Both the position numbers and the translations under genes were made by a program. Positions 25,350-43,164 of a stretch of 64,000 nucleotides of DNA are shown piece by piece. Within the stretch, counting starts at the first letter, position 1. The number at the start of each line of letters is the position of its first letter. The notes under the pieces are model-generated. The model ran no database searches and was not told the DNA's origin. It was given only the letters and a program-made list of their open reading frames with translations. This stretch comes from Anaerolineales bacterium (lineage in GTDB: Bacteria > Chloroflexota > Anaerolineae > Anaerolineales > Villigracilaceae), in NCBI GenBank assembly GCA_014379595.1, contig JACMLM010000035.1, forward strand, positions 1 to 64,000, read 5' to 3'.

Positions 25350-26348
25350 CTACTTTACCATCCAGCAGGCCACCCAGTGCATGGGTGCTGCTTCACGAAA
25401 CTCAGGTTCCTGCTCGGAGCAGATCTTTTCTGCAATGGGGCAGCGCGGATGAAAACGGCAGCCACGCGGCGGATTAAGCGGACTGGGCACATCGCCTTTA
25501 AGTACTTCACGTTCACGCTTGAGTCTTGGGTCTGGAATGGGAATGGCCGTCATTAAGGCTTTTGTATATGGATGTAAAGGTTGTCGAAAAAGATCTTCGC
25601 GCCCGGCCAATTCAACCATTTTACCGAGATACATAACAGCCACACGGTCTGAGATATGTTCCACCACGCTCAAGTTGTGTGCAATGAAAAGATAGGTAAG
25701 ACCGAATTCTTTTTGCAAATCCTTTAAGATATTAAGCACCTGTGATTGAATGGAGACATCCAATGCAGAGACGGGTTCGTCACAAATAATAAAGTCAGGG
25801 CGTAATGCAAGCGCTCGGGCAATGCCAATACGCTGGCGTTGTCCGCCGGAGAATTCATGCGGATAACGACGGGCGTGATAATCTTCCAAACCGACTTTTT
25901 TAAGCGTGTCGATCATCAGATCGTAACGTTCCTGCCGCGTACCAATATTATGAATGTGCAACCCCTCCATTACAGATTCGCCAATTGGCACACGCGGATC
26001 AAGCGAAGCATACGGGTCTTGAAAGATGATCTGCATGTTACGGCGTACATCCTTCAAATCACTGCCGCGCAATTTCAAAACATCTTTGCCGTCATAATGC
26101 ACGGACCCGGAAGTTGGTTCCACCAATCGAAGCATGGACCGTCCGATGGTTGTTTTTCCACAACCAGATTCACCCACCATCCCAAGCGTTTCACCTTTTT
26201 TTACGGTAAACGAAACATCGTCCACGGCTTTTACCCAATTTACCACGCGCTGCATTAACCCGGCGCGCACCGGAAAATATTTGACCAAATGTTGGACTTC
26301 AACCAAATTTTCTGTTTTGCTTGGTTCTGTTATTTGACTCATGCTCAT
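25350..26348 (-). CDS. Peptide ABC transporter ATPase, OppF/DppF type
   Basis: A 332-residue ATPase that would power uptake through the permease pair at 29528-31516. Walker A is [12 protein letters not shown], the signature is [15 protein letters not shown] and Walker B is [12 protein letters not shown]. The C-terminal oligopeptide motif with [13 protein letters not shown] and later cysteines is typical of Opp/Dpp ATPases. The start is either ATG 26348 or 26342; CGGAG lies close upstream of both. It is the last gene of this transporter set. Confidence 0.95.
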
Positions 26349-26382
26349 TGGCTCCGAGACAATTGATAATTTATTTCAAAAA

Positions 26383-27408
26383 CTAATTTGCTTTCAGGGG
26401 TGCCTGGTGGCCTTCTGCATTCTGATACAACCAGCAGCGCACAAGATGCCCAGGAGCGGCTTCCATAAGATCAGGTTTTACATCTGTGCAGATCTTCAAG
26501 CCAAATTTTTCACGTGCCGTGCAACGGGGTGCAAAGCGGCAGCCCTCAGGTAGATTCACCAGATTCGGTACCGAACCGGGGATCACATCCAACCGTTCTT
26601 TCAGTTTACCCAAAACAGGGATGGAACCGATCAAGCCTTGTGTATATGGATGTAAAGGCTGTTCAAAAAGCGAATTCACATCAGATTGTTCAACGATCTC
26701 ACCAGCGTACATCACGGCCACACGTTCAGCCATTTCTGCCACTACGCCAAGATCATGTGTGATCAAAATAACAGACGTACCCATCTTTGCACTTAAATCG
26801 CGCATTAGATCGAGTATCTGCGCCTGAATAGTTACATCTAAAGCAGTGGTAGGCTCGTCTGCGATCAATAATTCAGGGACGCAAGCCAGCGCCATCGCGA
26901 TCATCACACGCTGTGCCATGCCGCCAGATAACTCATGTGGATAAGCCTGGGCGCGACGTTCTGGGTCAGGAATACCGACCATCTTCAATAATTCAACAGC
27001 ACGTTTTTTCCCAGCATCCTTACCAAAATCTTTGTGAATGTTCAATACTTCTGCGATCTGATTATCTACTTGAAAAACAGGGTTCAAGGCAGTTTGCGGT
27101 TGTTGAAATATCATTGAAATCTTGTTGCCGCGCACTTTGGTCATTTCGTTTTCAGAAAGATCCAGAAGATTTTTGCCGTCGAATAATATTTCCCCAGCGG
27201 ATATTTTACCGGGCGGTGCGATCAAACGCATGATCGAAAGCGACGTGACACTCTTGCCGCAGCCTGATTCGCCTACGATGCCCAATACTTCACCGGGATA
27301 TACTTCAAAATTCACACCATCCACGGCACGCACAGTACCATCTTCTGTAGAAAAATAAGTTTTAAGATTGCGTACTTCCAATAAAGGCTTTTGATCGGTT
27401 TTTGCCAC
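26383..27408 (-). CDS. Peptide ABC transporter ATPase, OppD/DppD type
   Basis: A 341-residue partner of the preceding OppF-type ATPase. Walker A is [12 protein letters not shown], the signature is [15 protein letters not shown], Walker B is [12 protein letters not shown], and [18 protein letters not shown] is the C-terminal motif. The frame extends upstream to 27477, but AGGAG lies six bases before GTG 27408 and a TATAAT-like box near 27437 lies inside the extension, so GTG 27408 is preferred. Confidence 0.92.
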
Positions 27409-27491
27409 ATCCGACTCCTGAAGTTTGAATGGAAGCATTATACTGCTTCTCGTATTAATCTCCACTGCCTTGCTCATAAATCAATATTTAC

Positions 27492-29426
27492 TCAATTCTG
27501 GCAGGCCTCGCCTATATCAATCGATTCGATATTCCAGAGCGGGTTAGCAGTTGGGTCAAAATCAAAGTGACAGAGATCGGGGCGTGTTACGGCAACGCGC
27601 AAACGATAATAGAGTGGAATGGCGGGCAGTTCAGTGGAAAATAGCACTTGTGTTTCGCGATACGAATCTGTATATATTTGCTCTTCAGGCAGAGATTGCT
27701 GGGCAGAGTGACAAGCTTCATCATATTCAGGGTTCTTATAACCAGTTACATTTGTGCCTATCCATAAGTTGGATTGAGAAGGAATCTCAGCACTTGTAAA
27801 CCAACCACATGGAGGTTCTATACTATTGACACCCATTGCATATTCAATCAAGTCAAAACTGCGGCCAAAGAGTAATCCATTGGGACCGGGGGCATAAAGA
27901 TCGTTTTGTGAAAAGTATTCCACATTGAGTCCAACGCCGCATTCAGACAGTGATTGCGCCAGAATTTCCACCACCTGCCTACGTTGGGTGGCAGTCGTGG
28001 TGTAATAATTAAGTTGCAAAGGCGTGCCTGCTGTAACATTGTCTACACCCGATGCAAGGCGCGGCGTGGCAGGGTTGCCATCCAGATCTTTCCAGCCAGC
28101 TTGTTCAAGCAATGAGATTCCAACTGCGGGGTCGTACGGAGTGGCTTCAATATTAGGGTCATATAAAGGATGTTCAATGGGGATATATGTAGTAGGTACA
28201 GTGGTAAGCCCAAACAAAACATTATCTACAATAGATTGACGATCAAGACAATAGGCAATTCCCTGTCGCGTGTGGGCATCGCCAAAAATATCTTTCCTAT
28301 CTTTTGCTGGATCATAACCATCATCATAGGATGCAGGCGCGACACCAAGCCCAAGCCATTCAATGCTCATACCTGGCATGAAATATGCTTTGGCTTGTTC
28401 AGCCGCTTGCATTTCCTGTAATAAGCCAGCTTGACCATCCAGGTTTATGGTTGGGTCGAGAATGTCACAGCGGCCAGCCACTAATTCGCTCAGAGCCATG
28501 TTCGGGTCAGGAATGAAGCGAAATGAAAGACTGTCGAATTTTGGATTCCCATCCCCAACACCAAAGTAATATGGATTCTTCGTAAGCAGAATTTGATCGC
28601 CCGGAACCCAATCTTGAATCATGTAAGGTCCCCAACCAAGTGGTGAACGAGAGGCAATGTCAATCGTTGATAATTGATCAGCAGGAAACTGACTCCATAA
28701 ATGTTTCGGTGCAGGCGGCCAAAAGTTTGTAAAATAAGCAGGCTCAATAAAACCAGGTTTGCCCCACCATTGAATGGTATAGGCATCAGCAGCTTCATAA
28801 GTTTGCGTGCGTTCTATCAAATAAGTGTTTGCAACTGCACTCGGGTCAGATGCAAGTTCAAATGCATAGATCGAGTCATCTGCAGTGAGAGGCGTGCCAT
28901 CTGCCCATGTTAGATCTTTCCGCAAACGAAATGTAACAACCATTTGATCCATTTCAAGCGCGGTCGTGCCATCATAAGTGATGACGCAATCGTCACCGCG
29001 ACATTCAGCAGGACGGACTCTTATGCCTTCTTTCAGCAAAACAAGATTTCCATCCGCATCTACAATCTGACCTCCGGCCGGTATTGGCGTTCTGACAATT
29101 TCAGCATCCCCGTTTTCAAGCGACGGCAATTGCGTAAGAATAACAGATTGGTATTCATAACCGATCATGTCAATCGGGCCATCATTAACCGCGGCTAATA
29201 TGCTGCGTGCTGCGGCATTAGGTCCACCGAATGGATATAACGTATTCGGCTCCTCACCCAAACATACCGTCAACATACGCGGCTCGGAGACTGCTGTTGG
29301 AATAAAGATCGGCGCTTCAGATGGAGTGGGAGTTACATCAGGCTGTGGAGATGAAAATCCACAAGCAGTGATTACAAGAAGGAATATGAAGGCAATGAAT
29401 ATGGCAGCACGGTTTGAAGGCAACAT
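27492..29426 (-). CDS. Peptide-binding lipoprotein, SBP family 5
   Basis: A 644-residue extracytoplasmic binding protein for a peptide or other nutrient. The signal peptide ends in lipobox VITAC. The domain order is the usual one: EEPNTLYPFGGPNAAARS, then FRLRKDLTWADGTPLTADD, GWGPYMIQDWVPGDQILLTK and YCLDRQSIVDNVLFG. ATG 29426 is preferred over 29453 because AAGGA precedes it. It sits between the permease pair and the ATPase pair, giving this set a second binding protein besides 31615-33444. Confidence 0.93.
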   Translation of the reverse strand: MLPSNRAAIFIAFIFLLVITACGFSSPQPDVTPTPSEAPIFIPTAVSEPRMLTVCLGEEPNTLYPFGGPNAAARSILAAVNDGPIDMIGYEYQSVILTQLPSLENGDAEIVRTPIPAGGQIVDADGNLVLLKEGIRVRPAECRGDDCVITYDGTTALEMDQMVVTFRLRKDLTWADGTPLTADDSIYAFELASDPSAVANTYLIERTQTYEAADAYTIQWWGKPGFIEPAYFTNFWPPAPKHLWSQFPADQLSTIDIASRSPLGWGPYMIQDWVPGDQILLTKNPYYFGVGDGNPKFDSLSFRFIPDPNMALSELVAGRCDILDPTINLDGQAGLLQEMQAAEQAKAYFMPGMSIEWLGLGVAPASYDDGYDPAKDRKDIFGDAHTRQGIAYCLDRQSIVDNVLFGLTTVPTTYIPIEHPLYDPNIEATPYDPAVGISLLEQAGWKDLDGNPATPRLASGVDNVTAGTPLQLNYYTTTATQRRQVVEILAQSLSECGVGLNVEYFSQNDLYAPGPNGLLFGRSFDLIEYAMGVNSIEPPCGWFTSAEIPSQSNLWIGTNVTGYKNPEYDEACHSAQQSLPEEQIYTDSYRETQVLFSTELPAIPLYYRLRVAVTRPDLCHFDFDPTANPLWNIESIDIGEACQN

Positions 29427-29464
29427 GGCAAAATCCTTTTTTGAGGAAAGCATTTGTCAATTAT

Positions 29465-29498
29465 ACAAGCAAGCCGCCCATATGGGCGGCTTGCTTGT
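29465..29498. terminator. Long hairpin between permease and binding-protein genes
   Basis: A perfect 17-bp palindrome (ACAAGCAAGCCGCCCAT and complement). No clear T run follows on the minus strand, so it may stabilise or partially terminate the transcript rather than end it. Confidence 0.6.
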
Positions 29499-29527
29499 AA
29501 TTAGTTTGATTTTCAATCGTATAAATT

Positions 29528-30502
29528 TTATTGTACACCGCGCATACGAGGATCAAGCGCATCGCGCAAACCATCACCCAGGAAGGTGAATGAAAGAACA
29601 ATGACCGCTATACATAGCGCTGGAGGAAGCAGGATGAAAGGTTGAGAATTGATCGCGCCATACCCATCAAGTAAAAGTGAGCCCCAGCTTGTTATAAAGT
29701 AATTGCCTTCCAGTTGAGTTGCGGGGCGTAATCCCAGTCCAAGAAAACCCAAAATGGCTTCTGAAATAATAAGGCCGGGAACAGTAAAGGCAGCGCTTAC
29801 AGTCAGCGGGCCAAGACAATTTGGAAGGATATGGCGAAACATAATGCGTGAATCTTTCACACCAATACAACGGGCGGCCTCAACAAATTCTTTTTGTTTG
29901 AGGGAAAGTACCTGTCCGCGCACAAGGCGTGCCACACCTACCCAGTTCACAATAGCCAAAGCCATGAACAGTAGAAATAACCCATTCATGAATTGACCAA
30001 CCGGTTCTTCGCGCAGAGCAACCATTACAATAATAAAGAAGAGCAGATCAGGGAATGCATAGATCACATCCGTGATGCGCATCAAAACAATATCCCAGTT
30101 ACCGCCAAAGTAACCCGAGACCATACCAATCAATGTACCGATCAATAAAATCACGGTTGTAGGAATCAGACCCACGACGATGGAAACACGTGTTCCATAG
30201 ATCAAGCGGCTTAGAACATCACGTCCAATAGAATCGGTTCCAAAGAAGAAATTAGGGTCACCGTCTTTTAAATCACTCTCATACCATGGGGGAGGAAGAT
30301 AACTCTTTCCTGGAAAGATTTGCAAAGGATTATGAGGAGAAAAGACTGGTGCGAATATGGATATGAGCGTAAAGATAGAGATCACGATCATCCCCGCCAC
30401 AGCGGCTTTATTCTTAATCAGCCGGGACCATGCTTCTGCGCCAAGACTGCGCCCGCGTTTAACCTCTACTGTACCAAGTTGTGCAACATTTTCAGCAGCC
30501 AT
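29528..30502 (-). CDS. Peptide ABC transporter permease, OppC/DppC type
   Basis: A 324-residue permease with about six membrane helices. RNMFRHILPNCLGPLTV-like sequence (RIMFRHILPNCLGP), the EAA loop EFVEAARCIGVKDSRI and the FFGTDSIGRDVLSRLIYGTR segment identify the OppC family. TAGGAGATAAAT precedes the ATG. It pairs with the OppB-type permease just upstream (9-base gap). Confidence 0.95.
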   Translation of the reverse strand: MAAENVAQLGTVEVKRGRSLGAEAWSRLIKNKAAVAGMIVISIFTLISIFAPVFSPHNPLQIFPGKSYLPPPWYESDLKDGDPNFFFGTDSIGRDVLSRLIYGTRVSIVVGLIPTTVILLIGTLIGMVSGYFGGNWDIVLMRITDVIYAFPDLLFFIIVMVALREEPVGQFMNGLFLLFMALAIVNWVGVARLVRGQVLSLKQKEFVEAARCIGVKDSRIMFRHILPNCLGPLTVSAAFTVPGLIISEAILGFLGLGLRPATQLEGNYFITSWGSLLLDGYGAINSQPFILLPPALCIAVIVLSFTFLGDGLRDALDPRMRGVQ

Positions 30503-30511
30503 ATTTATCTC

Positions 30512-31516
30512 CTACTTTTCAAGGCGAATGCGCGGGTCAATGAAAACATACACAAAGTCCACGCTCACATTGGCAAGTGCAACGAGCAGAGCATAGATCA
30601 GGGTCGTCCCCATGATCATGGAATAATCACGCTGGCCAATGGATTGAATGTAGGCACGTCCCATTCCCGGGAAGCTGAACAACGTCTCCACAATAAATGA
30701 ACCTGTTACCAGGCCTGCAAGTGCGGGGCCAAGAATGGTGACCACCGGGATCAGAGCATTTTTCAACATATGGCCAACAACAACCACACGTTCAGCAAGC
30801 CCTTTGGCACGCGCAGTACGAACATAATCCTGACGCATCACTTCCAGCATCGCAGCGCGTGTAAGCCTGGCAGTAAAGGAACTGGTATTGAAGCCCAATA
30901 CAATTGAGGGTAGTATCCAATACTTTAATTCATTCCATGTTTTAGGAATTACGTTGATCCAATGCAACATTGATGCGAATATGATGATAAGAAATAGACC
31001 AAGCACAAAGCTTGGGACAGATACGCCCGCTGTTGTTGTAAACAAGCCAAGGTAATCGACCCAGGTATTCTGTTTGAGAGCCGCGATCATTCCCACTGGG
31101 ATACCAATAATAATGGCAATTGCCAGAGCAAACAAGCCCAGACGCAGAGAATAACCAAAACGGCTATACCAGAACGAATCATTATCACCAAATGGCACAA
31201 ATAATATCTGTTGGATGGTCAGGCCTTTCTGACGATAGGAAGGGCCAAGGTTCCCACACATGGCACCGCAGACAAATTTTTTGTCGTCGTCAAAATCTCC
31301 AAAAGTATAGGCAAGGAACTGACGCCATACTGGTTTATCCAGGCCATAAAATTTTTCAAGAGCCTTTTGCGTAGCCGGGTCCAGCGAACGTCTATTTTCC
31401 GCTGCCCCATCCCACGGACTTCCAGGCGCGCTACGCATGATAAAAAAAGTAACCAATGATACCGTGAACATTACCGGGATCAACCAAAGCAGGCGTCGTA
31501 AAAAGTAATTTATCAT
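30512..31516 (-). CDS. Peptide ABC transporter permease, OppB/DppB type
   Basis: A 334-residue permease. MINYFLRRLLWLIPVMFTV is the usual N-terminal helix, followed by FFIMRSAPGSPWDG, then the ATPase-contact loop DYVRTARAKGLAERVV and a C-terminal FVYVFIDPRIRLEK. ATG 31516 is chosen because AGGAGAACTAAA lies just before it; the frame itself opens at 31573. Confidence 0.95.
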   Translation of the reverse strand: MINYFLRRLLWLIPVMFTVSLVTFFIMRSAPGSPWDGAAENRRSLDPATQKALEKFYGLDKPVWRQFLAYTFGDFDDDKKFVCGAMCGNLGPSYRQKGLTIQQILFVPFGDNDSFWYSRFGYSLRLGLFALAIAIIIGIPVGMIAALKQNTWVDYLGLFTTTAGVSVPSFVLGLFLIIIFASMLHWINVIPKTWNELKYWILPSIVLGFNTSSFTARLTRAAMLEVMRQDYVRTARAKGLAERVVVVGHMLKNALIPVVTILGPALAGLVTGSFIVETLFSFPGMGRAYIQSIGQRDYSMIMGTTLIYALLVALANVSVDFVYVFIDPRIRLEK

Positions 31517-31553
31517 TTTAGTTCTCCTCGCCAATATAAATGGAGGGTGTGGA

Positions 31554-31584
31554 GGCTGGACGGGTCTTATCAACCCGTCCAGCC
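31554..31584. terminator. Hairpin after the binding-protein gene
   Basis: GGCTGGACGGGT (31554-31565) pairs with ACCCGTCCAGCC (31573-31584) around a 7-base loop. The T-rich flank is on the plus-strand side, so for the leftward operon it more likely protects the binding-protein mRNA or attenuates expression of the permeases. Confidence 0.6.
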
Positions 31585-31614
31585 TTTATTTTATTTCAAA
31601 CTGCAAAGCAGTTT

Positions 31615-33444
31615 TTAGTTAGCCATCTTGGTGTCGACCGAAATCGTCCAAGGTGTCCAGTCGCCTGGGAAGGTATTGTCTTGTGGGGTGGTAATGAAAC
31701 CAGTGATCCACGGCTTCACCAGGAAGGTATGTGAAGTGTTGTAACCGAAGACGGAAGGAATGTCAGCCAATAACAGATCCTGAGCCTGTTCGTAAAGAGC
31801 AGCGGCAGCGGCGGGATCAACAGTGCCATCAGCCTGGTCGATCAAGGCATCAAACTCTGGGTTAGAGTAACCCTGATCAGAAGCGAAATCAGAGGAAGAC
31901 TTCCAGTAAACGCTCAACCAGTTCTGCTGATGAGGATAATCTGCGCACCAACCCTGGCGAGCCAGTAATGGGAATGTAGCAGGATCCTTGGTCAAAGCAG
32001 TAAAGGTGGTTGCATCAACGGGGTCTAGAGCAATGTCAACACCAAGATTATTCTTGTAGTTGGCAACGATCCATTCGCTGCGGGCACGGTTGCGAGCTGT
32101 ATCGCCGAAGGTCAATTTCAAACCAAGGGCATTGAGTGCATCAGGACCAGCATAGGTGGATTCAGCCAAAGCAGCCTTGGCGCGTTCTGGATCAAAGGCC
32201 AATGGGGATTCTTCCTTGTAACCAGGATAACCACGTGGGATCCAGGTCCAGGTTGAGAGGGAAAGGCCAGAATCTACATCACGAGCCCAACCATCGGCAT
32301 CAAAGGCGAAGGCAAAAGCTTCGCGAACTTTGACATCCTTGAAAGGTGTCTCATAGGATGAGCCATCGGGAGCGGTAAATGTGCCCTGTAAGCTGAAGCG
32401 AAGAAGAATTGTGCAGGAACCAGCATATTGGAAATTCTGGGCAGCCAATTCAGAGTCAGCAGCGATTGCGGCTACATCTTCACCACCATAGCCGATCACA
32501 TCCAATTCATCATTCTTATAAGCTTCGAACTGAACAGCACCATCGGTGATGTAGCGGTATTCGACGCTATAGGTAGGAATTTCGTTGACTGTGAAGTTAG
32601 GATTGGGGACGAATAAAGCGCGAACAAAAGGTTCAGCTTCCTGCCACATGAATGGGCCATTGCCGACCTGGAACTTGGTGGATGTCCACCAAAGATCGCC
32701 ACCTTCTTCAACCAATTCCTGTCTAACGGGGTAAGTAACCCAGAGACCCAAAACTGTAGCGAAGTAAGGAGCAGGCTTGCTCATGGTAACCACAAGGGTA
32801 TTGCAGTCAGCATCATCATAGGCGTTGCCAGTATCAGCATTGATAACACAATCTGAACCGTCAGCATGTGTGGATTTGATACCCAACGCAGCTTCGAGAG
32901 CAACGCCTTCTTCCTCAGTACAAGCGGCAGGATCTGCACAACCACTGCTAGTGCGCCATTCAGGAGCACCAACAATTTCGTCGGTGATAAATGCATATTC
33001 ACCAGCGGTGGCAGGATTGATATTGCGGTGAAGGGCATATTCGTAGCGGGCAGCATTCAAAGGAACGCCATCGCTATAGGTCATGCCTTCACGAATGTGG
33101 AATGTCAATTGTGTAGCATCTTCATTGAATTCCCATGATTCAGCACCACCAGGTACTGTTTCAAGTTTTTCGTTCAATGAGGTCAAACCAACATAGATCA
33201 TCTTGAGGTGACCAATTTCATTGACGAAGGAAGACTTCTGGGGATCGATCGTGTCTGGGTAAGTACCCGAGTTAACACGCAGAACAGCGGCACGAACATC
33301 ACCCTCAACTACGGGGGGCTCAGTGGCAGCAGGTTCTTCAGGTGCTGCAGGGGCATCAGTGCTGGGAGCAGCCGTAGGACCGCAGGCAGCAAGAGCCATG
33401 CTAGCGATCACAAGAAGGCTCAGTAAAGCAAATAGTTTACGCAT
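31615..33444 (-). CDS. Peptide-binding lipoprotein, SBP family 5
   Basis: A 609-residue binding protein anchored by lipobox LAAC after MRKLFALLSLLVIASMA. The order is canonical: VNSGTYPDTIDPQKSSFVNE, TFHIREGMTYSDGVPLNAAR, FAFAFDADGWARDV near the middle and GWCADYPHQQNWLSVYW late. ATG 33444 is used because GAGGAGAAGA overlaps the upstream codons. A hairpin follows the stop. Expression is expected to exceed that of the permeases. Confidence 0.94.
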   Translation of the reverse strand: MRKLFALLSLLVIASMALAACGPTAAPSTDAPAAPEEPAATEPPVVEGDVRAAVLRVNSGTYPDTIDPQKSSFVNEIGHLKMIYVGLTSLNEKLETVPGGAESWEFNEDATQLTFHIREGMTYSDGVPLNAARYEYALHRNINPATAGEYAFITDEIVGAPEWRTSSGCADPAACTEEEGVALEAALGIKSTHADGSDCVINADTGNAYDDADCNTLVVTMSKPAPYFATVLGLWVTYPVRQELVEEGGDLWWTSTKFQVGNGPFMWQEAEPFVRALFVPNPNFTVNEIPTYSVEYRYITDGAVQFEAYKNDELDVIGYGGEDVAAIAADSELAAQNFQYAGSCTILLRFSLQGTFTAPDGSSYETPFKDVKVREAFAFAFDADGWARDVDSGLSLSTWTWIPRGYPGYKEESPLAFDPERAKAALAESTYAGPDALNALGLKLTFGDTARNRARSEWIVANYKNNLGVDIALDPVDATTFTALTKDPATFPLLARQGWCADYPHQQNWLSVYWKSSSDFASDQGYSNPEFDALIDQADGTVDPAAAAALYEQAQDLLLADIPSVFGYNTSHTFLVKPWITGFITTPQDNTFPGDWTPWTISVDTKMAN

Positions 33445-33566
33445 TTTTCTTCTCCTCACAAAATATTAGTGAAATGTTTTAACGAACGTACGGTCAGGTG
33501 ATACAAAATATTTTACTAGCCGAGCAACAACCACCTCCTTTATAAGAATATAAGAATTTATCCTGC

Positions 33567-34559
33567 TTATATAAAACGTTCTGCAAAGTGACAAGCCACG
33601 AAATGGCCGGGTTTTAACTCACGGAATTCCGGGCGTTGTTCTGAACATATAGTTTCTGCAATCGGGCAACGAGTGCGGAAACGACAACCTGAAGGCGGGT
33701 TGACCGGTGAAGGAACATCACCTTCCAAGAGTGTACGAGTACGTTTCGCTTCGAGTATCGGGTCAGGAATCGGCACGGCTGAAAGCAAAGCCTGCGAGTA
33801 TGGGTGCAAAGGATTTGTATATAAACTATTGCTATCGGTCAGTTCCACCATGATGCCTAAATACATTACCGCCACGCGATCACTAATATGTCTCACCATG
33901 GACAGGTCATGTGCAATAAATAGGTAAGTAAGGTTAAACTGCTCCTGCAATTCCTGCAATAAATTCACAACCTGCGACTGGATCGAAACATCCAAAGCAG
34001 AAATTGGTTCATCACAAACGATAAAAGACGGCTGCAACGCCAAAGCACGTGCAATACCAATACGCTGGCGTTGTCCGCCGGAAAACTCATGTGGATAACG
34101 GCTGGCAAATGCAGGATTAAGCCTCACCAATTCGAGAAGATGCGCAACTCGATCTTGAACTTCTCTGCCAGTGGCAATATTATGAACGATAAGAGGTTCA
34201 CCAACAATTTCCCCGATCGACATACGTGGATTCAAACTTGCATAAGGATCCTGAAAGATCATCTGCATTTTACGGCGCATATGGCGCAGCTCTTCACCTT
34301 GTAGTTCAATCAAATTTGAGCCGTCAAAATTTACATTCCCAGATGTCGGCTTATATAATTGAAGAATAGCACGCCCCGTAGTAGATTTTCCGCACCCAGA
34401 CTCACCCACCAAACCAAGCGTTTCTCCGCGATGCACATCAAAAGAAATACCATCTACAGCATGAATAGCACCTACCTGGCGTCTAAGCAAACCACGATAG
34501 ATCGGGAAATGCATCTTTAAATCTTCTACATTTAGTAACACTTCAGTACTGGCGGTCAT
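33567..34559 (-). CDS. Peptide ABC transporter ATPase, OppF/DppF type
   Basis: A 330-residue ATPase with Walker [13 protein letters not shown], signature [15 protein letters not shown], Walker [13 protein letters not shown] and C-terminal [13 protein letters not shown]. Its ATG overlaps the stop of the preceding OppD-type gene by four bases (ATGA), so the two are translationally coupled. The pair lies upstream of the binding protein at 31615-33444. Confidence 0.95.
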
Positions 34560-35548
34560 GAGCGCGGTCTCCCAGTCTTGGTATCTACCCAGCAGGCAAC
34601 ACGATGTTCCGGGCCCACTGTCTCAAGCGTTGGATTTTCTTTCCAGCAGCGCTCCATCACCCACTTACAACGCGGCGCGAAAGGACAGAAATGAGGCTTT
34701 TGATATAAAACGGGAGGCAGCCCTTCAATGGAAGTTAACTTCTTGTTTATCTTTTGATCCAGACGCGGCAAACTGCCAAGTAATCCAATAGTATATGGAT
34801 GTTCCGGATTGGTGTATAGATCAGCCACTGGAGATTCTTCGATAATAAACCCGCCATACATTACAGCTACACGTTGAGCCAGACCAGCTACGATTCCCAG
34901 ATCATGTGTGATCCAGACAATTGCCATACCGATCTCATCACGCAAACGCTTAACCAGTTCAATGATCTGCGCCTGGATGGTTACATCCAAAGCGGTGGTT
35001 GGTTCGTCTGCGATCAAAACCTGTGGACTGCAGGATAACGCCATCGCGATCATTACGCGCTGACGCATACCACCCGAAAATTGATGAGGATAATCTTTTA
35101 ATCTATCTTTAGGCTTTGGAATACCCACCATACCCAATAATTCTGCTGCACGCTCACTTGCCTGATTTCTGGACATGCCCACATGTAACATGAGCGGTTC
35201 TTCCAATTGATGGCCGACCGTCAACACTGGGTTGAGCGATGTCATCGGATCCTGAAAAACCATGCTAAGTTGCGCACCACGCACATGGCGGATCTCTTCA
35301 CTTGACATCTTAAGAAGATCCTGGCCCATGAAAAAGGCCTCTCCTGCAATGATTTTCCCCGGAGGCGAAGGAATAAGCCCTAATACAGAAAGCATGGTTA
35401 CACTTTTACCGCAACCGCTTTCCCCTACAACACCAAGCGTTTCTCCTTCCTTCAACACAAAAGAAACACCATTTACTGCATGAATAATCCCATCTGGAGT
35501 CTTGAATTGTGTTTCAAGCCCTTTAACATCTAGTAAAAGATCTGGCAT
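34556..35548 (-). CDS. Peptide ABC transporter ATPase, OppD/DppD type
   Basis: A 330-residue ATPase with Walker [13 protein letters not shown], signature [15 protein letters not shown], Walker [13 protein letters not shown] and [16 protein letters not shown] at the end. It opens this transporter set after the terminator at 35774-35800; the promoter should lie within 35549-35770. Confidence 0.95.
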
Positions 35549-35853: not shown

Positions 35854-36072
35854 TTATCGATCCCTATCATTATCTCTTCGCTTTTCCTTGGTACGAGAAA
35901 GAGCCATCCCAATGAACCCAAGAAAAAAACCAAAAGTGGATGAGATAAACGAGATAAAATTTAAGAAGAAAGTAGATTCAAGAATATGTAAAACCATTAG
36001 GAAAGGAATCGCCACACCCAACAACATCATTCCTATGGCTATCGCCAATAAACGTTTGGGGTGATTTAACAT
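35854..36072 (-). CDS. Small two-helix membrane protein at the operon end
   Basis: A 72-residue hypothetical protein with two membrane helices (about 8-30 and 36-60) and a charged tail (SRTKEKRRDNDRDR). Its ATG overlaps the stop of the ATPase gene in TAATG, so translation is probably coupled. It may be an accessory subunit of the transporter; no family is recognised. Confidence 0.65.
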   Translation of the reverse strand: MLNHPKRLLAIAIGMMLLGVAIPFLMVLHILESTFFLNFISFISSTFGFFLGFIGMALSRTKEKRRDNDRDR

Positions 36073-37109
36073 TATTTATAAAGCCAGCAAGCCGCGTGAT
36101 GACCCGCAGAAATCTCAAATTCAGGCGGCTCTTCTACATCACACAGGTTATCTATTTTTCTGGAACAGCGCGGATGAAATCTGCATCCAGTCGGAGGCGA
36201 AACAAGACTCGGCGGCTCCCCAGGCGGGATCTCCTTAAAGGTTTCCGCATTGCGAGAATCAGGGTCTGAAGTAGCCGTAAGCAATGCAGCTGTATATGGA
36301 TGAGAGGGGTTATTGAGCAATTCCTTAACAGGCGATTTCTCAACTATATTACCCGCATACATAACAAATATTCGCTCCGAAAAATAACGCACAGTCGAAA
36401 GATCATGAGTAATATAGATCATCGCTAGGTTATGTGATTCCTGCAAACCGCGCAGCAACTTAAGAATTTCCACACGTACAGAAGCATCCAGCATAGACAC
36501 AGGTTCATCTGCAACGATCAGTTTCGGTTCCATCACCATCGCGCGCGCAATCACCACACGTTGTTGCTGCCCGCCGCTTAGCATATGCGGGTATTTTGAA
36601 AGAAAATCATCCGCCGGGGATAATTTAACTTCATCCATTACCTTTCGCACCCTTTGCTCGCGTTCATCGGCGTTCTTGACTCCATGCACGATCAAAGGTT
36701 CTTCCAAAATACGCTGCACCGTCATAAAAGGAGCTAGTGCGCCATACGGATCCTGCTGGACATAACCTACCTTGCGGCGATACCAGTGCCAATTCTGTGT
36801 ATCAAAAGTATTAATATCTTTCCCCTCGAAAAGGATATTTCCCTTGGTGGGCTTGTTCAACCCCAAAATGGATTTCATTAAACTGGATTTGCCGCATCCG
36901 CTCTCACCGACAACTGCCACCGCTTCGCCGTAGTGCAAATCAAAGGAAACATTATCCACCGCACGGACGTAGCCTGCATGACCAAACCCGAAACGCCTGA
37001 GTTCAAACCACACGCGCAGGTCACGCACAGAAAGAAGTACATCACCTTTTACGTTGGCTTCAGAAACGCCTGTTATTTTTTCTTCTGCTGATTTTGCAAT
37101 CATAACCAT
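36072..37109 (-). CDS. Peptide ABC transporter ATPase, OppF/DppF type
   Basis: A 345-residue ATPase with Walker [13 protein letters not shown], signature LSGGQQQRVVIARAM, Walker B LIVADEPVSMLD and [13 protein letters not shown] near the end. The frame opens at 37136 inside the preceding gene, but TAGGAGAAGCC lies before ATG 37109 (MVMIAKSAEE), which is taken as the start. It differs from the other F-type paralogues, including Met for Ala in the D-loop. Confidence 0.93.
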   Translation of the reverse strand: MVMIAKSAEEKITGVSEANVKGDVLLSVRDLRVWFELRRFGFGHAGYVRAVDNVSFDLHYGEAVAVVGESGCGKSSLMKSILGLNKPTKGNILFEGKDINTFDTQNWHWYRRKVGYVQQDPYGALAPFMTVQRILEEPLIVHGVKNADEREQRVRKVMDEVKLSPADDFLSKYPHMLSGGQQQRVVIARAMVMEPKLIVADEPVSMLDASVRVEILKLLRGLQESHNLAMIYITHDLSTVRYFSERIFVMYAGNIVEKSPVKELLNNPSHPYTAALLTATSDPDSRNAETFKEIPPGEPPSLVSPPTGCRFHPRCSRKIDNLCDVEEPPEFEISAGHHAACWLYK

Positions 37110-37117
37110 GGCTTCTC

Positions 37118-38077
37118 CTAATTGTATAACCAGCACTTAACCAATCGTTGATCCTTAACAATGACTGGTGGATCTTCTGAGCACTTACCAAACGCAGCCG
37201 GGCAGCGATCTCTAAATCGGCACCCACTTGGCAAATTCAGCAGGCTTGGAGGACGTCCGGTAATAAATTCAGGCTCCTCATCGCCGCGTAAACGAGGCAC
37301 GCTTGCCATCAGCTTCTGAGAATATGGATGTAAAGGTGCTGTGAAAAAATTCTTTGCATCACTAACTTCCACGATCTGACCAGCATACATTACAGCAACA
37401 CGGTCTGCCAATTCACTGGAAGTAGCAATATCATGTGTGATCAAAATAAAACTTGTTTCAAGCTCACCTTTAAGACGCTTTAATACATTGAAAATATTGG
37501 CTTGTGTAAGAACATCCAAAGCGGATGTTGGTTCATCTAATACAACCAGGGCTGGCGAAGTGACGAGCGCCATGGCAATTGCAACACGCTGCCTCATTCC
37601 TCCGCTTAACTCAAAAGCATAACGATCTAAAAAAGCGCCTGGCACGCCAACATGTTGAAACATGGCGAGCGCAGTTTTTAATGCTTCGTCCTTTTTTACG
37701 CCGTGATGCACCATCAATGGTTCAGCTATTTGATCACCAACCTTTAAGACTGGATTCAATGAATTCATAGCGGCTTGAGGCACAAGTGACATCATTATCC
37801 AGCGCACATTACGACGAAATTCTTCATCATCCAAAGTCATCACATCTGAACCATTGAGAAAAACTTTGCCGGAGTATTCCGCGGTATTGCGAGGTAACAA
37901 CCGCAATATGGCTTTTGCAAGAGAACTCTTACCACAACCCGATTCGCCAAGTACAACCACGGCTTCATTATAGCCAAGAGAAAAATTCACTCCATCCACT
38001 GCCTGTACAATCCCACTCGTAGTTCGAAAATGAAGTTTCAGGTCTTCCAAACGCAATAATGTATTTGAATTCATCAT
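37118..38077 (-). CDS. Peptide ABC transporter ATPase, OppD/DppD type
   Basis: A 319-residue ATPase with Walker [13 protein letters not shown], signature [15 protein letters not shown], Walker B LVVLDEPTSALD and LPSGCRFRDRCP. It directly follows the permease gene (stop and start adjacent) and is followed by the F-type ATPase after eight bases. Confidence 0.95.
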   Translation of the reverse strand: MMNSNTLLRLEDLKLHFRTTSGIVQAVDGVNFSLGYNEAVVVLGESGCGKSSLAKAILRLLPRNTAEYSGKVFLNGSDVMTLDDEEFRRNVRWIMMSLVPQAAMNSLNPVLKVGDQIAEPLMVHHGVKKDEALKTALAMFQHVGVPGAFLDRYAFELSGGMRQRVAIAMALVTSPALVVLDEPTSALDVLTQANIFNVLKRLKGELETSFILITHDIATSSELADRVAVMYAGQIVEVSDAKNFFTAPLHPYSQKLMASVPRLRGDEEPEFITGRPPSLLNLPSGCRFRDRCPAAFGKCSEDPPVIVKDQRLVKCWLYN

Positions 38078-39415
38078 TTATATATCTCGCAATTTCGGAT
38101 TGAAAACTCGGTCGAGAGCAAACCCGAGCATGGCAAACCCGAGGCCGGATAACATTAACAAAATGGAAGGCGCCATGATCCAGTAATACAAGCCCTTATA
38201 GAGTGCACCATTCGTAAATGCGTCATTGATAAGTCTGCCCCATGTAGGTAGAACAGGGTCACCCAGGCCAAGTACGGCCAGTGTTGCCTCAAGGAATACA
38301 AAAGCAGGCACTGATGAAACCACGCCGGGGATCAACAACGGAATCATGCGCGGGATCATATATACAAAAATAATTCTGCTTGCACTTGTTCCATAAGCGC
38401 GTGCCGCTTCAATATAAGTTGATTCCTTAACTTGCATAAAAATAGACCGATAGACTTTGATGCCCCCAGTAAAAATACTTAACAACACTGTCGTTCCCAA
38501 AATGACCCAGGTACTTCGTGAATAAAAAGTGCCCACCATGATCAAAATGGAAAAGAAAGGCAAAACCAGATTCACCTCTGTGATGCGCTGAATTAACGCG
38601 TCCACCCAGCCACCATACCAGGCACCTAAAGCAGCAATAATCATTGTCAACACAGATGTGCCCAGTGAGGCGATCAACCCAAAAGCAAGTGCGACAGGTG
38701 CGCCCCATAACATGGGAACAACCAGGTCACGACGCTGATGATCCGTACCAAACAAACCATAAACAGTTCCATGGAAAACAAACTCTGCATTGATGTCAGA
38801 GCCTTCTTCAAACGTAATGCCTTCAATTACAAGTTTATATATGCCTTTTAGCGGCGTCTTGCCATCCTCTCCTACAAACAAACCCTGCATAGGCTCCAGG
38901 CCCGAGAGTCGCCTGACCAATTTCTCGTCCTGTGAGATGCGAAAAGTTTGACGAGAGTCAACTCCAAAATCGGAAATACGAATCTTTCGCTCATCTGGAG
39001 TAAGCCAATAAATTGAAACGAATGGTTGTTTCTCTTTATAATTTGCATCAAAATAAAGCAGGATTTCCTGCGGAAATGCATCGTAGGAAAAGTCAAATGT
39101 ATAAGTAATGTTGATGCGGCTTGTATTTTGTTCTCCGACTTCAACAACTTTTTCCGCGCCAGCACTGGTTTCATCCATTACAAATGAGACCGGCTGCTTC
39201 ACTTTGGCAAAGTAGTTAAACCAGGAGGGTGCCGCAAATTTTGGGTTTTGATACCAAACATCTTCACCGCCGCGCCATAAGAGGAGCGCTTGAGAATATG
39301 GAATGGCGATCATGGCATACGCGGCCAGAGCAAACAAAAGAAAGACGCTCACCAAACCTGCTATTGCAGATGGATAGCGTACCAATTCCTGAAAAGCTTT
39401 TTTAACTGAGTTCAT
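38078..39415 (-). CDS. Peptide ABC transporter permease, OppC type with a large extracytoplasmic insertion
   Basis: A 445-residue permease, over 100 residues longer than usual. After the first helix (IAGLVSVFLLFALAAYAMIA) lies a loop of about 170 residues (about 40-215), predicted outside and containing beta-type segments such as INITYTFDFSYDAFPQEILL. The canonical core follows with GTDHQRRDLVVPMLWGAPVA and the EAA loop TYIEAARAYGTSASRI. The loop may contact the unusual binding protein of the same operon (40621-43164). Confidence 0.92.
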   Translation of the reverse strand: MNSVKKAFQELVRYPSAIAGLVSVFLLFALAAYAMIAIPYSQALLLWRGGEDVWYQNPKFAAPSWFNYFAKVKQPVSFVMDETSAGAEKVVEVGEQNTSRINITYTFDFSYDAFPQEILLYFDANYKEKQPFVSIYWLTPDERKIRISDFGVDSRQTFRISQDEKLVRRLSGLEPMQGLFVGEDGKTPLKGIYKLVIEGITFEEGSDINAEFVFHGTVYGLFGTDHQRRDLVVPMLWGAPVALAFGLIASLGTSVLTMIIAALGAWYGGWVDALIQRITEVNLVLPFFSILIMVGTFYSRSTWVILGTTVLLSIFTGGIKVYRSIFMQVKESTYIEAARAYGTSASRIIFVYMIPRMIPLLIPGVVSSVPAFVFLEATLAVLGLGDPVLPTWGRLINDAFTNGALYKGLYYWIMAPSILLMLSGLGFAMLGFALDRVFNPKLRDI

Positions 39416-39420
39416 ATTTT

Positions 39421-40545
39421 TTATCCGCCTACTTTCACTCGCGGGTCAACAAGCGCATACACAAAGTCCAGCAGAAACACTGTAATTGCAAGCAAATATG
39501 CAAAGATGATCGTAGAGCCGACAATAACAGGGATATCAAACAGACCAACAGCCTTATATAATGTAATACCCAGACCGGGCCACAAAAAGATAGTCTCTGT
39601 AACGATAGCGCCAGTCCAAAGACTGATCAGTAAAAGTGCAAAGTTTGTAACGATATTTGGCAGCGTAGGGCGCAAAATATATTGGCGTTCAATATCACGT
39701 GCAGAGAGACCTTTTGCCTTCGCCATCTCCACATAATCTTCACTGGAATATATAAGGAAGAACGTGCGCCAATTGTAGATACTAATGAAGAAGGCGCTGA
39801 TCACAAGCGCTGAAACGGGGAGAATCAAATGTTTAATGAGACTCATACTGTATCCCCATTTTGTTTCGGGCGGAGGTGCATCCACCATTCCGCCAAAGGG
39901 AAGTATTTTTAACACCGCCGCAAATATAAGAATAAAGAAGACACCATAAAACCATGAAGGAGCTGCAGATGTTGGAGATAAGGCAATGACAAGCCTATCG
40001 ATCCAACTTCCATAATTACGAGAAAGAGAAAGAGCAAAATAGACAGATGCAAAGAAAAGAAAAAGTTGGGATGTCCCCATTAATAACAACGTAGCCGGCA
40101 GACGTTCCAAAAGGATCAGGCGAACTGTCCTTGAGCCATTGTCACTGGTCATGTTCTGCGCGCGCCCAAGCTCAAGTTTTAAGGCGCTAGTTAAATAATT
40201 GAGACTGCGAACTGCAACCGGAACGTCCAACCGAAGGCGTTTCTCCTCCACTAGGATCAAATCTTGAGCAATTTTTTTGCGCGTTTCAGGAGCCATATCC
40301 TGATAGGCTTTGTTAGTTAACACAGACTGTGTAATACGCTCGCGAATTTCATTACGCATAATCGTATCAACATATCCACCCATGTTTGCGATCATGATCG
40401 TTAAATAAATACCGATGACAACTGTAATAAACAAGGTGATCAAGCGTGACAACCCATAACGCATAATACGCGCAAAGGTACTTGTTGAAGTCTTCTTGAG
40501 AAAAGCTCCAAGATTACTATCTGTAGTTTCAGTAATATCGGCCAT
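39421..40545 (-). CDS. Peptide ABC transporter permease, OppB type
   Basis: A 374-residue permease. The N-terminal helix FARIMRYGLSRLITLFITVV is followed by an extended extracytoplasmic region (about 55-130), then the core with the EAA-like loop DYVEMAKAKGLSARDIERQ and DFVYALVDPRVKVGG. GGAGG lies eight bases before ATG 40545, preferred over GTG 40551. It lies between the hairpin following the binding-protein gene and the OppC-type gene. Confidence 0.93.
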   Translation of the reverse strand: MADITETTDSNLGAFLKKTSTSTFARIMRYGLSRLITLFITVVIGIYLTIMIANMGGYVDTIMRNEIRERITQSVLTNKAYQDMAPETRKKIAQDLILVEEKRLRLDVPVAVRSLNYLTSALKLELGRAQNMTSDNGSRTVRLILLERLPATLLLMGTSQLFLFFASVYFALSLSRNYGSWIDRLVIALSPTSAAPSWFYGVFFILIFAAVLKILPFGGMVDAPPPETKWGYSMSLIKHLILPVSALVISAFFISIYNWRTFFLIYSSEDYVEMAKAKGLSARDIERQYILRPTLPNIVTNFALLLISLWTGAIVTETIFLWPGLGITLYKAVGLFDIPVIVGSTIIFAYLLAITVFLLDFVYALVDPRVKVGG

Positions 40546-40565
40546 GTTCACGTCCTCCAGTTACG

Positions 40566-40597
40566 AATAGGGGCAAGGCCTAGGCCTTGCCCCTATT
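40566..40597. terminator. Perfect palindrome after the long binding-protein gene
   Basis: Sixteen-base arms AATAGGGGCAAGGCCT and complement with no loop bases. No long T run follows on the minus strand, so partial termination or mRNA protection between the binding protein and its permeases is more likely than a full stop. Confidence 0.65.
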
Positions 40598-40620
40598 CTT
40601 CTTACTTTACATATAACAGC

Positions 40621-43164
40621 TTATGGGGCTGTTACGAATTCAATACTGGTGAAAGTTGGGATGGCCACTGTGAGAGGCGCAACTGCAACTTCCAGTTTGT
40701 TCGAACCAGCTTCAAGCTTGGCTGTAACGTCGGCAGGGAGAACGATCTGATATTGACCATCTGCAACTACTGCAGCTTCACCAACGGTCACAACTTCGCC
40801 ATTGGCATTATAGAGCAGGTACTTCACAAACTTGATCTCATCCTGCGGGTAAGCGGCATCATTAAAGGTCACGAAGAGATCAAACGTAGCTTCTTCACCG
40901 ATCACAACCTGTCCGGGGCCATCCAACTCAGCAAGAGCGAGTTTCGGTTCAGTAAAGTTGCTCCAACGATCAGCGAGATCGGGATAATCCTCGAAGCGCT
41001 TCAAGGTCAGGGTCTTCTCGGTTGGGAAAGCCTTGTCTAACATATAAGGACCAGTACCTTGCCAGAAATGACCATGCTCAGTATAGAAAGCTTTCAGCGA
41101 TTCATAACGGCCTGCAGCTTCTTCAGGAGTAATGTATTGGCTCAACATTGGTTCAAACGGAATGTAAGAATCAGCAGCAGCCTGATCCAGATACTTGGAA
41201 AGGATATCAAGGCTTGGGCCGCCTACATAGTTGAGCTGTTCAACCTGAGTAACATCAGCTTTATCAATTGAGTATGCCAATTCACCGTTTTCTTCAGCCA
41301 GGTTACCGATTGCGATCTGGGCAAAGTTACCCTCACCAAGACCATAATTTGGCCACGCGCCACCCACATTCAACTCAGCATCAGCGCTGAATGTATCACT
41401 ATAAACTTCAAAAACGAGCGGATCTGTGGAAGCAACACGGAAGCCCTTAAACGTGGTCATGAACGCCTCAAAACCAGCAACATATACTTCGTCATACAGG
41501 GCGCTTTCGGGTTTACCACGATCAAAGGTCATGGCCCAGGCGAGCATAATATCAGCCAGGGAGAAGTTTGAACCATCATGCCATTTGATCGTATCAAACA
41601 GGTCGGCAGGATAGTAGGCAACGCTCATACGTTTGGCAGTTTGGCCTTCAGGGAACTTCTCAGCTGAAGTGATGAACTGCTGTGTTGTTGCATCCCAATC
41701 AACAAAGGCATCTTCAGGAACTGCGATCTCAGGCGCGAAGGACAAGTCCACCCAATCGTGAGTAGCGCCAACAGGCAAACCTTCGACCACGGTTACTTCG
41801 GCACGCTCAAGGCGCAAAGGCCAAACAAGACCAGTAAATGGATCGTTCATGGTGTCGCCGCTGGTGGTCGCGCGGATCACACCCTGATCCCAGGCCCAGT
41901 TACTGCCTGCGATCGGATTCCATGGCTCGGTAAATACATCACTTGTGGCCCACTTAAGTTGACCACCTTCTTCACCAGCAAAGCGGACGGTATAGGGCCA
42001 GATCTGTGCGCCTTCAACACCAGCAGCAAGATCAAAACTGAGATTAACCGCCGGGCTGTATGGAGCATAATTCTTACCGTCGATCAACCATACTTGCAGG
42101 GAATCTTCGAGAGAAAGTTCGAGAGCGCGTATCATCATCTCGCGGCGCTCTGCAAGGGTATTGTATTCAGCATTCGCCAGCTTATCACCTAATTCAAGGA
42201 ATTCGGGATCAGACTGGTTCGCAACCATTAGATCAAGGCCCTGTGCACTGGATGGGAGGTACATTTCCTGGAATGAATTGCGTTGATCACGGTCAATGAT
42301 CGTGGCGCTCCATGCAGCAGTGTAGATGTGCCAGCCGCCATCAGCTGCGGTACCCTGCCATATTGGGCCGACCTCGGAAGAGGTTCCATATTGGCGATCT
42401 ACAGTAAAGCCAACTGTTTCCAATTGACTTGCGAAATAATCACCAATTGGGAGGCGTGTTCCATCGCTGTCATTGCGAATTAAGAAAACCACTACAACAG
42501 GCGCGTCACCTATTGCAAATTTGCCATCGGCATTGAGCGTGGCCCCCATGGCTTCCATTTCAGCAGTGATCACTTCTTTGGCTTTATCAGGATTGTACGC
42601 ATACTTGGCTTCGAGTTCACGAGCCACATCAGCGAGATCAGCATAATCAGGGAACTGGGTTGTGATGGGCAGATACTTCGCCAAACCACCGCCTGAGTAA
42701 ATTTCTTGATTGATGTAATCACGGTCAACCAGCCAGTTGGTCGCTTCGCGAATCTTACGATTTGTGAAGGGATTAAATTCACCGGAAGTGAATTCAGCGG
42801 GGTTATACATAATGTCATAATACAAACCATTCTGGCTGGTATAGCTCAAACCAGCATCTTGAATGGAAGGAAGATCAGCACTGGACAAACCAGAGGCATA
42901 GACATCAATTGCACCGGCTCCAATTTGGGTCACTGCGGAGTCTTTGGCAACAACAGATACAACGATCTCATCCAACCAGCCGCCCGTGCGAGTTGAAACA
43001 GGTTCTTCAGTTGCAGGGGGTTCCGTAGCTGGTGGTTCAGTTGCAACAGGAACTTCGGTGGTAGGTTCATCAGTGGCAGGAGCGGCAGTGCCGCCGCAGG
43101 CAGAAAGGATCATGCTGAAAATAATCAGCAGACCAAAAACAGACATTAAACGGTTTCGTGACAT
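40621..43164 (-). CDS. Long peptide-binding lipoprotein with apparently permuted SBP5 fold and C-terminal beta domain
   Basis: An 847-residue binding protein, about 250 longer than its relatives. The signal peptide ends in lipobox LSAC and is followed by a Thr/Pro/Glu linker. Segments usual for the second half of SBP family 5 come first (KIREATNWLVDRDYINQEIY at about 137-156), while segments usual for the first half come later (FTEPWNPIAG near 410, TIKWHDGSNFSLADIMLAW near 525) and GTGPYMLDK near 703. This order suggests a circular permutation. Residues about 755-847 look like an added Ig-type beta domain (VTFNDAAYPQDEIKFVKYLL). GAGGAGA precedes the ATG. It heads the operon with the enlarged permeases. 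Confidence 0.88.
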   Translation of the reverse strand: MSRNRLMSVFGLLIIFSMILSACGGTAAPATDEPTTEVPVATEPPATEPPATEEPVSTRTGGWLDEIVVSVVAKDSAVTQIGAGAIDVYASGLSSADLPSIQDAGLSYTSQNGLYYDIMYNPAEFTSGEFNPFTNRKIREATNWLVDRDYINQEIYSGGGLAKYLPITTQFPDYADLADVARELEAKYAYNPDKAKEVITAEMEAMGATLNADGKFAIGDAPVVVVFLIRNDSDGTRLPIGDYFASQLETVGFTVDRQYGTSSEVGPIWQGTAADGGWHIYTAAWSATIIDRDQRNSFQEMYLPSSAQGLDLMVANQSDPEFLELGDKLANAEYNTLAERREMMIRALELSLEDSLQVWLIDGKNYAPYSPAVNLSFDLAAGVEGAQIWPYTVRFAGEEGGQLKWATSDVFTEPWNPIAGSNWAWDQGVIRATTSGDTMNDPFTGLVWPLRLERAEVTVVEGLPVGATHDWVDLSFAPEIAVPEDAFVDWDATTQQFITSAEKFPEGQTAKRMSVAYYPADLFDTIKWHDGSNFSLADIMLAWAMTFDRGKPESALYDEVYVAGFEAFMTTFKGFRVASTDPLVFEVYSDTFSADAELNVGGAWPNYGLGEGNFAQIAIGNLAEENGELAYSIDKADVTQVEQLNYVGGPSLDILSKYLDQAAADSYIPFEPMLSQYITPEEAAGRYESLKAFYTEHGHFWQGTGPYMLDKAFPTEKTLTLKRFEDYPDLADRWSNFTEPKLALAELDGPGQVVIGEEATFDLFVTFNDAAYPQDEIKFVKYLLYNANGEVVTVGEAAVVADGQYQIVLPADVTAKLEAGSNKLEVAVAPLTVAIPTFTSIEFVTAP

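Follow-up and report, generated by a model that had tools for sequence, protein, structure and literature searches.

The OppA/DppA family of binding proteins is as a rule taken to have a single chain order, in reading, modelling and engineering alike. The gene at 40621-43164 (minus strand) of an Anaerolineales contig raises the question whether a natural member of this family carries the familiar segments in rotated order. The gene lies in a window of 64,000 nucleotides (contig JACMLM010000035.1, positions 1 to 64,000), encodes a lipoprotein of 847 aa and is the first gene of an operon reaching to 36072. We are confident that it encodes an SBP family 5 lipoprotein of the OppA/DppA type (cluster C) whose chain is circularly permuted, most likely by duplication, fusion and truncation, and that the permuted protein was cut again in one Chloroflexota family.

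Segment order and predicted fold of the 847-aa protein

All parts of the protein are encoded on the minus strand. The signal peptide (aa 1-23, 43096-43164) carries a lipobox read by eye, LSAC at aa 20-23 with Cys23, as in bacterial lipoproteins, and is followed by a Pro/Thr/Glu-rich linker (aa 24-60, 42985-43095) delimited by its sequence and by low model confidence. The canonical C-terminal part comes next (aa 61-394, 41983-42984), then the join of the old C-terminus to the old N-terminus (aa 395-399, 41968-41982, from half-profile boundaries), the canonical N-terminal part (aa 400-743, 40936-41967) and an Ig/macroglobulin-like beta domain (aa 746-847, 40624-40929), found where a first-pass annotation had already placed an added domain. 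In domain names, aa 61-394 would comprise the end of domain I, lobe 2 and the last domain I segment. WLDEIVV starts at aa 63, REATNW at 139, WHDGSN at 528, GTGPYM at 703 and FTEPKLALAEL at 737. These positions agree with the order claimed in the first-pass annotation, late motifs first and early motifs last, followed by GTGPYM, and the break between the FTEPKLALAEL and WLDEIVV ends of the canonical chain sits where it had been put.

The Pfam profile SBP_bac_5 (PF00496) matched the protein at E 1.8e-27, with 96.9 bits against a curated cut-off of 32.4, in two stretches, the best of which pairs aa 64-293 with profile 148-354. Like the ordinary members of SBP family 5 (OppA, DppA, NikA, AppA), the protein scores above the Pfam cut-off and is encoded in an operon with OppB, OppC, OppD and OppF; unlike them, it has lost the canonical N-to-C profile order, the C part preceding the N part, and NCBIfam equivalogs stay far below their cut-offs. 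We filed it as a permuted variant of the family and not as an ordinary member.

The nearest solved relative, OppA of Thermococcus kodakarensis (7FI3), matches in both halves, including the stretch around VPEDA, but its own order is canonical, whereas that of the 847-aa protein is swapped. Searched with phmmer, query 458-727 corresponded to residues 49-306 of 7FI3 chain A and query 74-287 to residues 333-568. A profile from eight permuted proteins found the same structure at E 1.2e-41, both stretches swapped, the next chain following at 1.7e-08. Half-profiles, built from both halves of 74 permuted ORFs, occurred once each on the 847-aa protein, the C profile (1-333) at aa 61-394 and the N profile (1-336) at aa 400-743. 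Every segment is present once and rotated relative to the homologue, which is the definition of a circular permutant.

A six-frame Pfam search of the organism's own genome returned nine ordinary SBPs, with one match each over most of the profile, and a tenth place matching profile 2-55 only. The same search gave profile 148-354 for the 40621-43164 gene; for a paralogue (G000:C15), colinear with the 847-aa protein at 57% identity, it gave profile 148-349 ahead of a stretch at 23-141 that scored below the cut-off (26.6 bits).

Structure prediction, proposed in the first-pass annotation as a check, supported the order in part. The AlphaFold2 model of the whole protein, computed from 8 sequences, was weak (pLDDT 55.5), but its aa 61-399 aligned with the C-terminal parts of canonical SBPs (7FI3 347-756, 1xoc 230-520), reaching the chain ends or stopping close to them, with Z 17-19 in the best 50 rows; for 7FI3 the alignment had Z 19.4 and rmsd 4.3 over 319 residues. 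Modelled alone from 9 sequences, the second half reached pLDDT 72.5; its N part matched 7FI3 weakly (Z 9.9, rmsd 5.6), and it ended in an Ig/macroglobulin-like sandwich (model blocks with pLDDT 75-96; Z 12.0 over 96 residues to 4u48), a domain also supported by relatives and given only a weak Big_4 match by Pfam (E 0.089). Foldseek and structural alignment lists for this second model consist mostly of Ig-like domain matches, and one domain can fill such a list. The protein may have a two-lobed fold with a third subdomain: aa 61-399 give the Z 17-19 alignments, the remainder of the models being weak.

Published descriptions of ordinary members allow the cut to be placed approximately. For oligopeptide-binding proteins, a section of PMC10924461 places both chain termini near each other, next to strands of the domain I sheet, and one of PMC11192437 puts the hinge between a helix and the strand after it. 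Judged by the order of elements, the hinge would here fall at about aa 104-107, in a low-confidence stretch of the model, and because of this position the first cut would lie in domain I with both hinge crossings kept. The old termini, adjacent in domain I of ordinary members, would have been joined by a short linker, and the chain would have been opened anew within domain I, some 40 residues ahead of the hinge. Since both hinge crossings would be kept, the protein should still act as a Venus flytrap that hands its ligand to OppBCDF. We also considered a single-hinge layout, with the cut in the hinge and each lobe contiguous with one crossing; it was rejected because the published hinge follows a helix (modelled aa 95-103, low confidence), which leaves the cut within domain I, some 40 residues ahead of the hinge.

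Distribution of the permuted order and a second cut

The half-profiles were run on the ORFs of 74 loci (the 40621-43164 window, L038-L045, L077-L111 and L144-L173). Among 84 matching ORFs of at least 600 aa (one ORF below 600 aa was omitted), 74 read C-then-N, one was permuted a second time, one read N-then-C, and in 8 only the C part matched, lying at position 250 or beyond as in canonical proteins; these 8 count as ordinary by position alone. The 74 C-then-N ORFs are also the training set of the profiles and had been selected after BLAST had shown C before N; an ORF with the opposite order would have surfaced among the untrained rows. The order that the first-pass annotation had read from one protein is backed by Pfam, by the canonical 7FI3, by this survey of homologues, which it had suggested, and by a second permutation of the same segment ring.

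At 1e-10, 38 of 400 Chloroflexota genomes matched the permuted protein, and the genes read by halves, from 31 of these 38, were all C-then-N except L077. The archaeal phylum of the Bathyarchaeota genome G400 was sampled as well; 155 of its 250 genomes matched at 1e-8, and most of the matches listed cover both halves in permuted order. Thirty archaeal regions and L044, which has a C-terminal membrane helix and no lipobox (by eye), all read C-then-N. No match was found in plasmids at 1e-8 or in viral contigs.

With queries de-permuted to the canonical order, the Chloroflexota genomes hit were again those 38 of 400, archaeal matches came from 95 of 151 genomes, and the matches listed almost all ended at the artificial junction; no close canonical-order relatives appeared among the matches listed from these 400 and 151 genomes. 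Two matches ran far across the junction. One (G393:C19, 8-498) is a gene permuted a second time, and the other (G516:C3, 271-668, with a stop inside) was taken to run into upstream sequence. All others overshot by at most about 14 residues.

In an unrooted OppB tree of 71 rows (70 different, one L043 permease being present twice), the 62 rows beside permuted SBPs lay on one side of a branch (SH-aLRT 100) and the 9 ordinary-operon rows on the other, several of the latter being long branches of unsure placement. ORFs that were cut, longer than 420 aa or more than 1.5 kb away were left out. Of the Chloroflexota rows, 36 clustered together among archaeal rows, and 5 more distant ones made up a second cluster, likewise nested among archaeal rows. 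An SBP tree of 85 rows, which omitted exact duplicates and rows with fewer than 450 filled columns, likewise placed both Chloroflexota groups beside archaeal rows. This picture agrees with a single ancient origin and two or more transfers between archaea and Chloroflexota, with archaea the likelier source. Tandem duplication followed by in-frame fusion and truncation is the most likely route, taken once and long ago, and the permuted gene would since have been passed between the two groups at least twice.

Single members of the sample show further changes. Two permuted SBPs (L090 7351-10248, plus strand; L091 7512-10406, minus strand) carry an insert of about 100 residues within the N half, and a third (L043 145-2644, from a draft genome) is broken by a frameshift.

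The exception among the Chloroflexota, L077, belongs to the family f52 and reads C 162-333, then N 3-332, then C 1-159 in half-profile positions. Matches were found in 6 of the 52 f52 genomes searched. By HMM reading, the third order C2-N-C1 is present in 4 of the 52, in five genes (L077, L185, L190, L186 and L188), while the remaining full-length f52 copies read were C-then-N; in a broader set of 100 genomes from the class, only G393 had the third order. Four of the five genes extend to the cut and have it at profile 159-162; the other, L190, is truncated at a contig end. The equivalent site in the 847-aa protein, aa 218-221 (42502-42513, minus strand), is uncut. Pfam crosses the restored link in the re-permuted genes (L077, profile 115-278; L185, 100-274). 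Three of the five stand directly before OppBCDF (L077, L185 = L200, L190 = L201), one follows OppF (L186 = L202) and one has no Opp genes in 10 kb (L188 = L205). The permuted protein was thus cut again in one Chloroflexota family, the second cut lying, as we map it, in lobe 2, by which the tether would have moved from lobe 1 to lobe 2. Two in-frame TAG codons met in G737 proved to be the genes' own terminators.

Both permuted forms coexist in some genomes (G393, G739), and permuted genes also stand in pairs (L079, L082), so duplicates suited to the duplication route exist. A family with two cut sites, some of whose genomes carry both forms, amounts to a natural experiment on receptor opening and tethering, and the paired copies are possible raw material for that route.

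Whether the second cut was made once is less clear-cut. Several independent origins at the same site, as opposed to one origin followed by gene conversion between paralogues, are plausible though not our favoured account. A one-clade test on 19-row trees, which omitted L143 as a second reading of L141, rejected a single group (p-AU 2.3e-05 for the whole protein, 7.9e-06 for N, 0.004 for C1, 1.6e-46 for C2). In all three segment trees L186 pairs with one standard copy (L079 136) and L188 groups with two others (L078 and L196); L188 also lacks the end motif of the other four re-permuted genes. Against this, the re-permuted group had been noticed before the test was named, and conversion between paralogues could mimic such a tree, L077 and its genome-mate L141 pairing in C2 (95/90). 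L077, L185, L186 and L190 have GV(T/S)R near the C-terminus in common, and L185, L186 and L190 a PAHTG join, both found in 0 of 10 distinct standard f52 genes. The common end motif (4 of 5) and the common join (3 of 5) speak for fewer origins plus gene conversion.

The operon and its large-loop OppC

Binding protein, two permeases and two ATPases stand together at 36072-43164, the composition of an Opp/Dpp importer, all on the minus strand. Behind the SBP gene follow an OppB-type permease of 376 aa (39421-40551, BPD_transp_1), an OppC-type permease of 445 aa (38078-39415, BPD_transp_1; NCBIfam Opp4C is the best match but below its cut-off), an OppD-type ATPase (37118-38077, ABC_tran and oligo_HPY) and an OppF-type ATPase (36072-37136), an ORF that shares 44% identity with another ATPase ORF of the window (33567-34559). 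Ordinary opp-type genes lie directly behind this operon on the same strand (25350-35548), with two canonical SBPs, two permeases and four ATPases.

The unusually large outside loop of OppC that the first-pass annotation had described was borne out by hydropathy estimates, which put TM1 at aa 18-36 and TM2 at 231-249, against 33-51 and 108-126 in an ordinary OppC of the window. The loop (about aa 37-230, 38726-39307) gave no Pfam family, the best match, for 38750-39280, having E 0.18. An OppB-type ORF lies at most 1.5 kb behind 62 of 75 permuted ORFs (the 74 and L077); the other 13 include genes at contig ends and scattered genes, mostly archaeal. With OppC ORFs cut by a locus end or longer than 700 aa left out, each of the 59 OppC proteins whose partner is a permuted SBP encoded upstream (58 of the first type and L077) has a TM1-TM2 gap of 193-380 residues, compared with 45-76 in 8 of 9 assigned to ordinary SBPs, the ninth (L181) having 309. 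Ten further OppC proteins have no assigned SBP, and 7 of these have gaps of 218-310.

One candidate large-loop case was rejected: the 649-aa ORF of L177 (2576-4525, minus strand), in the organism's own genome, is by eye a fusion of OppC and OppD whose first TM gap is 52, and it is counted among the 8 of 9. In another operon type, the OppC-type proteins are 584-596 aa long and their first TM gap is 309-310 (L181 817-2574, minus; L090 1945-3735, plus; L107 2577-4331, plus), and the SBPs, of 863-874 aa, have an ordinary-looking start. The large loop is a constant companion of permuted SBPs in this sample, but it is not specific to them because it is also present in this other operon type.

The companionship suggests that the permutation might be an adaptation to the large-loop OppC, the new termini and the beta domain docking on the loop, which we regard as rather doubtful. 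The gap figures favour it, and so does the pneumococcal Ami system, likewise an oligopeptide importer, for which a section of PMC11192437 proposes that the large outside portion of one permease clamps the binding protein; unlike here, where an OppC-type loop accompanies a permuted binding protein, the larger permease there is AmiC (498 residues). The L181 operon, however, combines its 309-residue gap with an 866-aa SBP whose start looks ordinary and whose order was judged by eye, and the f52 copies L077-L080 give no beta-domain match, although L077 and L079 keep the loop. Shared descent alone would explain the co-occurrence.

More speculative, and in our estimate unlikely, is an extension of the permutation reading in which an ancient permuted OppA branch has termini that are still moving round a closed ring of segments, re-docking the receptor while its pocket stays unchanged. 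The ring would have opened first in lobe 1 and reopened in lobe 2 in Chloroflexota with multiple paralogues, perhaps repeatedly at one site. With the lipid anchor at the new N-terminus, each move would change the tethered lobe and the presentation to the large-loop OppC.

Remaining alternatives, known systems and ligand

A fusion of two incomplete binding domains, each of which would need a partner molecule to complete it (as in a swapped dimer), is very improbable as an explanation of the swapped order. The order alone would be compatible with it, and a section of PMC11192437 reports a domain-swapped dimer for the ordinary member AliC. The 847-aa protein nevertheless holds each segment once, the Pfam stretches of the paralogue G000:C15 are complementary, and the half-profile boundaries are separated by 6 in 35 of 74 ORFs and by no more than 25 in 72 of them. 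In the re-permuted proteins each segment likewise occurs a single time, now in a third arrangement, as expected of a closed ring and unlike a random fusion. Two tandem partial domains, one of the findings by which the first-pass annotation would have given up its claim, are for the same reason a poor fit, each segment occurring once and the sets being complementary. An artefact of assembly or gene calling that wrongly joined two genes has a negligible chance: many of the genomes are draft or metagenome assemblies, but the idea is refuted by independent genomes (38 of 400 and 155 of 250 with matches, some single-contig, such as G005, G112 and G332), by open frames and by OppB close behind 62 of 75 ORFs.

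Circular permutation is known from other binding proteins, a section of PMC2395249 describing natural cases in glycine betaine-binding and molybdate-binding proteins and CysB, identified from structures. The present case resembles these in relating two-lobed binding folds by circular permutation; it differs in that theirs, as described there, are structural relations below 24% identity between different families, whereas the permutation reported here lies within family 5, was detected from sequence, occurs in both bacteria and archaea and was followed by a second cut in one lineage. In the literature searched, of which subscription journals are mostly outside the coverage, we found no earlier report of a naturally permuted OppA/DppA-type protein and no paper on 7FI3. 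A search aimed at the Sulfolobus oligopeptide-binding protein gave no result, and in PMC2588589, the one paper listed that combines SBP_bac_5 and circular permutation as terms, the latter occurs only in a reference. Annotation and model building may mishandle such a permuted form of a common transporter component, of which Pfam matched pieces only, and the cut sites suggest where the OppA/DppA fold might be permuted in the design of biosensors.

Operon, family and nearest solved relative point to an Opp-type importer. The entry title of 7FI3 names a bound pentapeptide, and structure titles of other family 5 members name sugars or metal chelates; the putative ligand of the 847-aa protein may be a peptide or an oligosaccharide. 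In E. coli DppABCDF, a scoop of DppB enters the cleft between the lobes, according to a section of PMC12136057, and nothing that we saw in the permuted order would seem to forbid a DppB-like scoop from entering.

In f52, one permuted gene (L080 4977-8204, minus strand; G393:C37) encodes 1075 aa, with about 370 N-terminal residues that carry an HEIGHTLGLDD zinc motif fused to the permuted binding protein. The N-terminal stretch matched a matrixin-like Peptidase_M10 (8.2e-06, 26.2 bits against a cut-off of 24), and a protease fusion of this kind fits peptide uptake in that member. Two further permuted SBPs (L191 1489-4041 and L195 1447-4065, both minus strand; G737:C103) have an extra N-terminal stretch, which in L195 holds an InlB B-repeat (PF18998).
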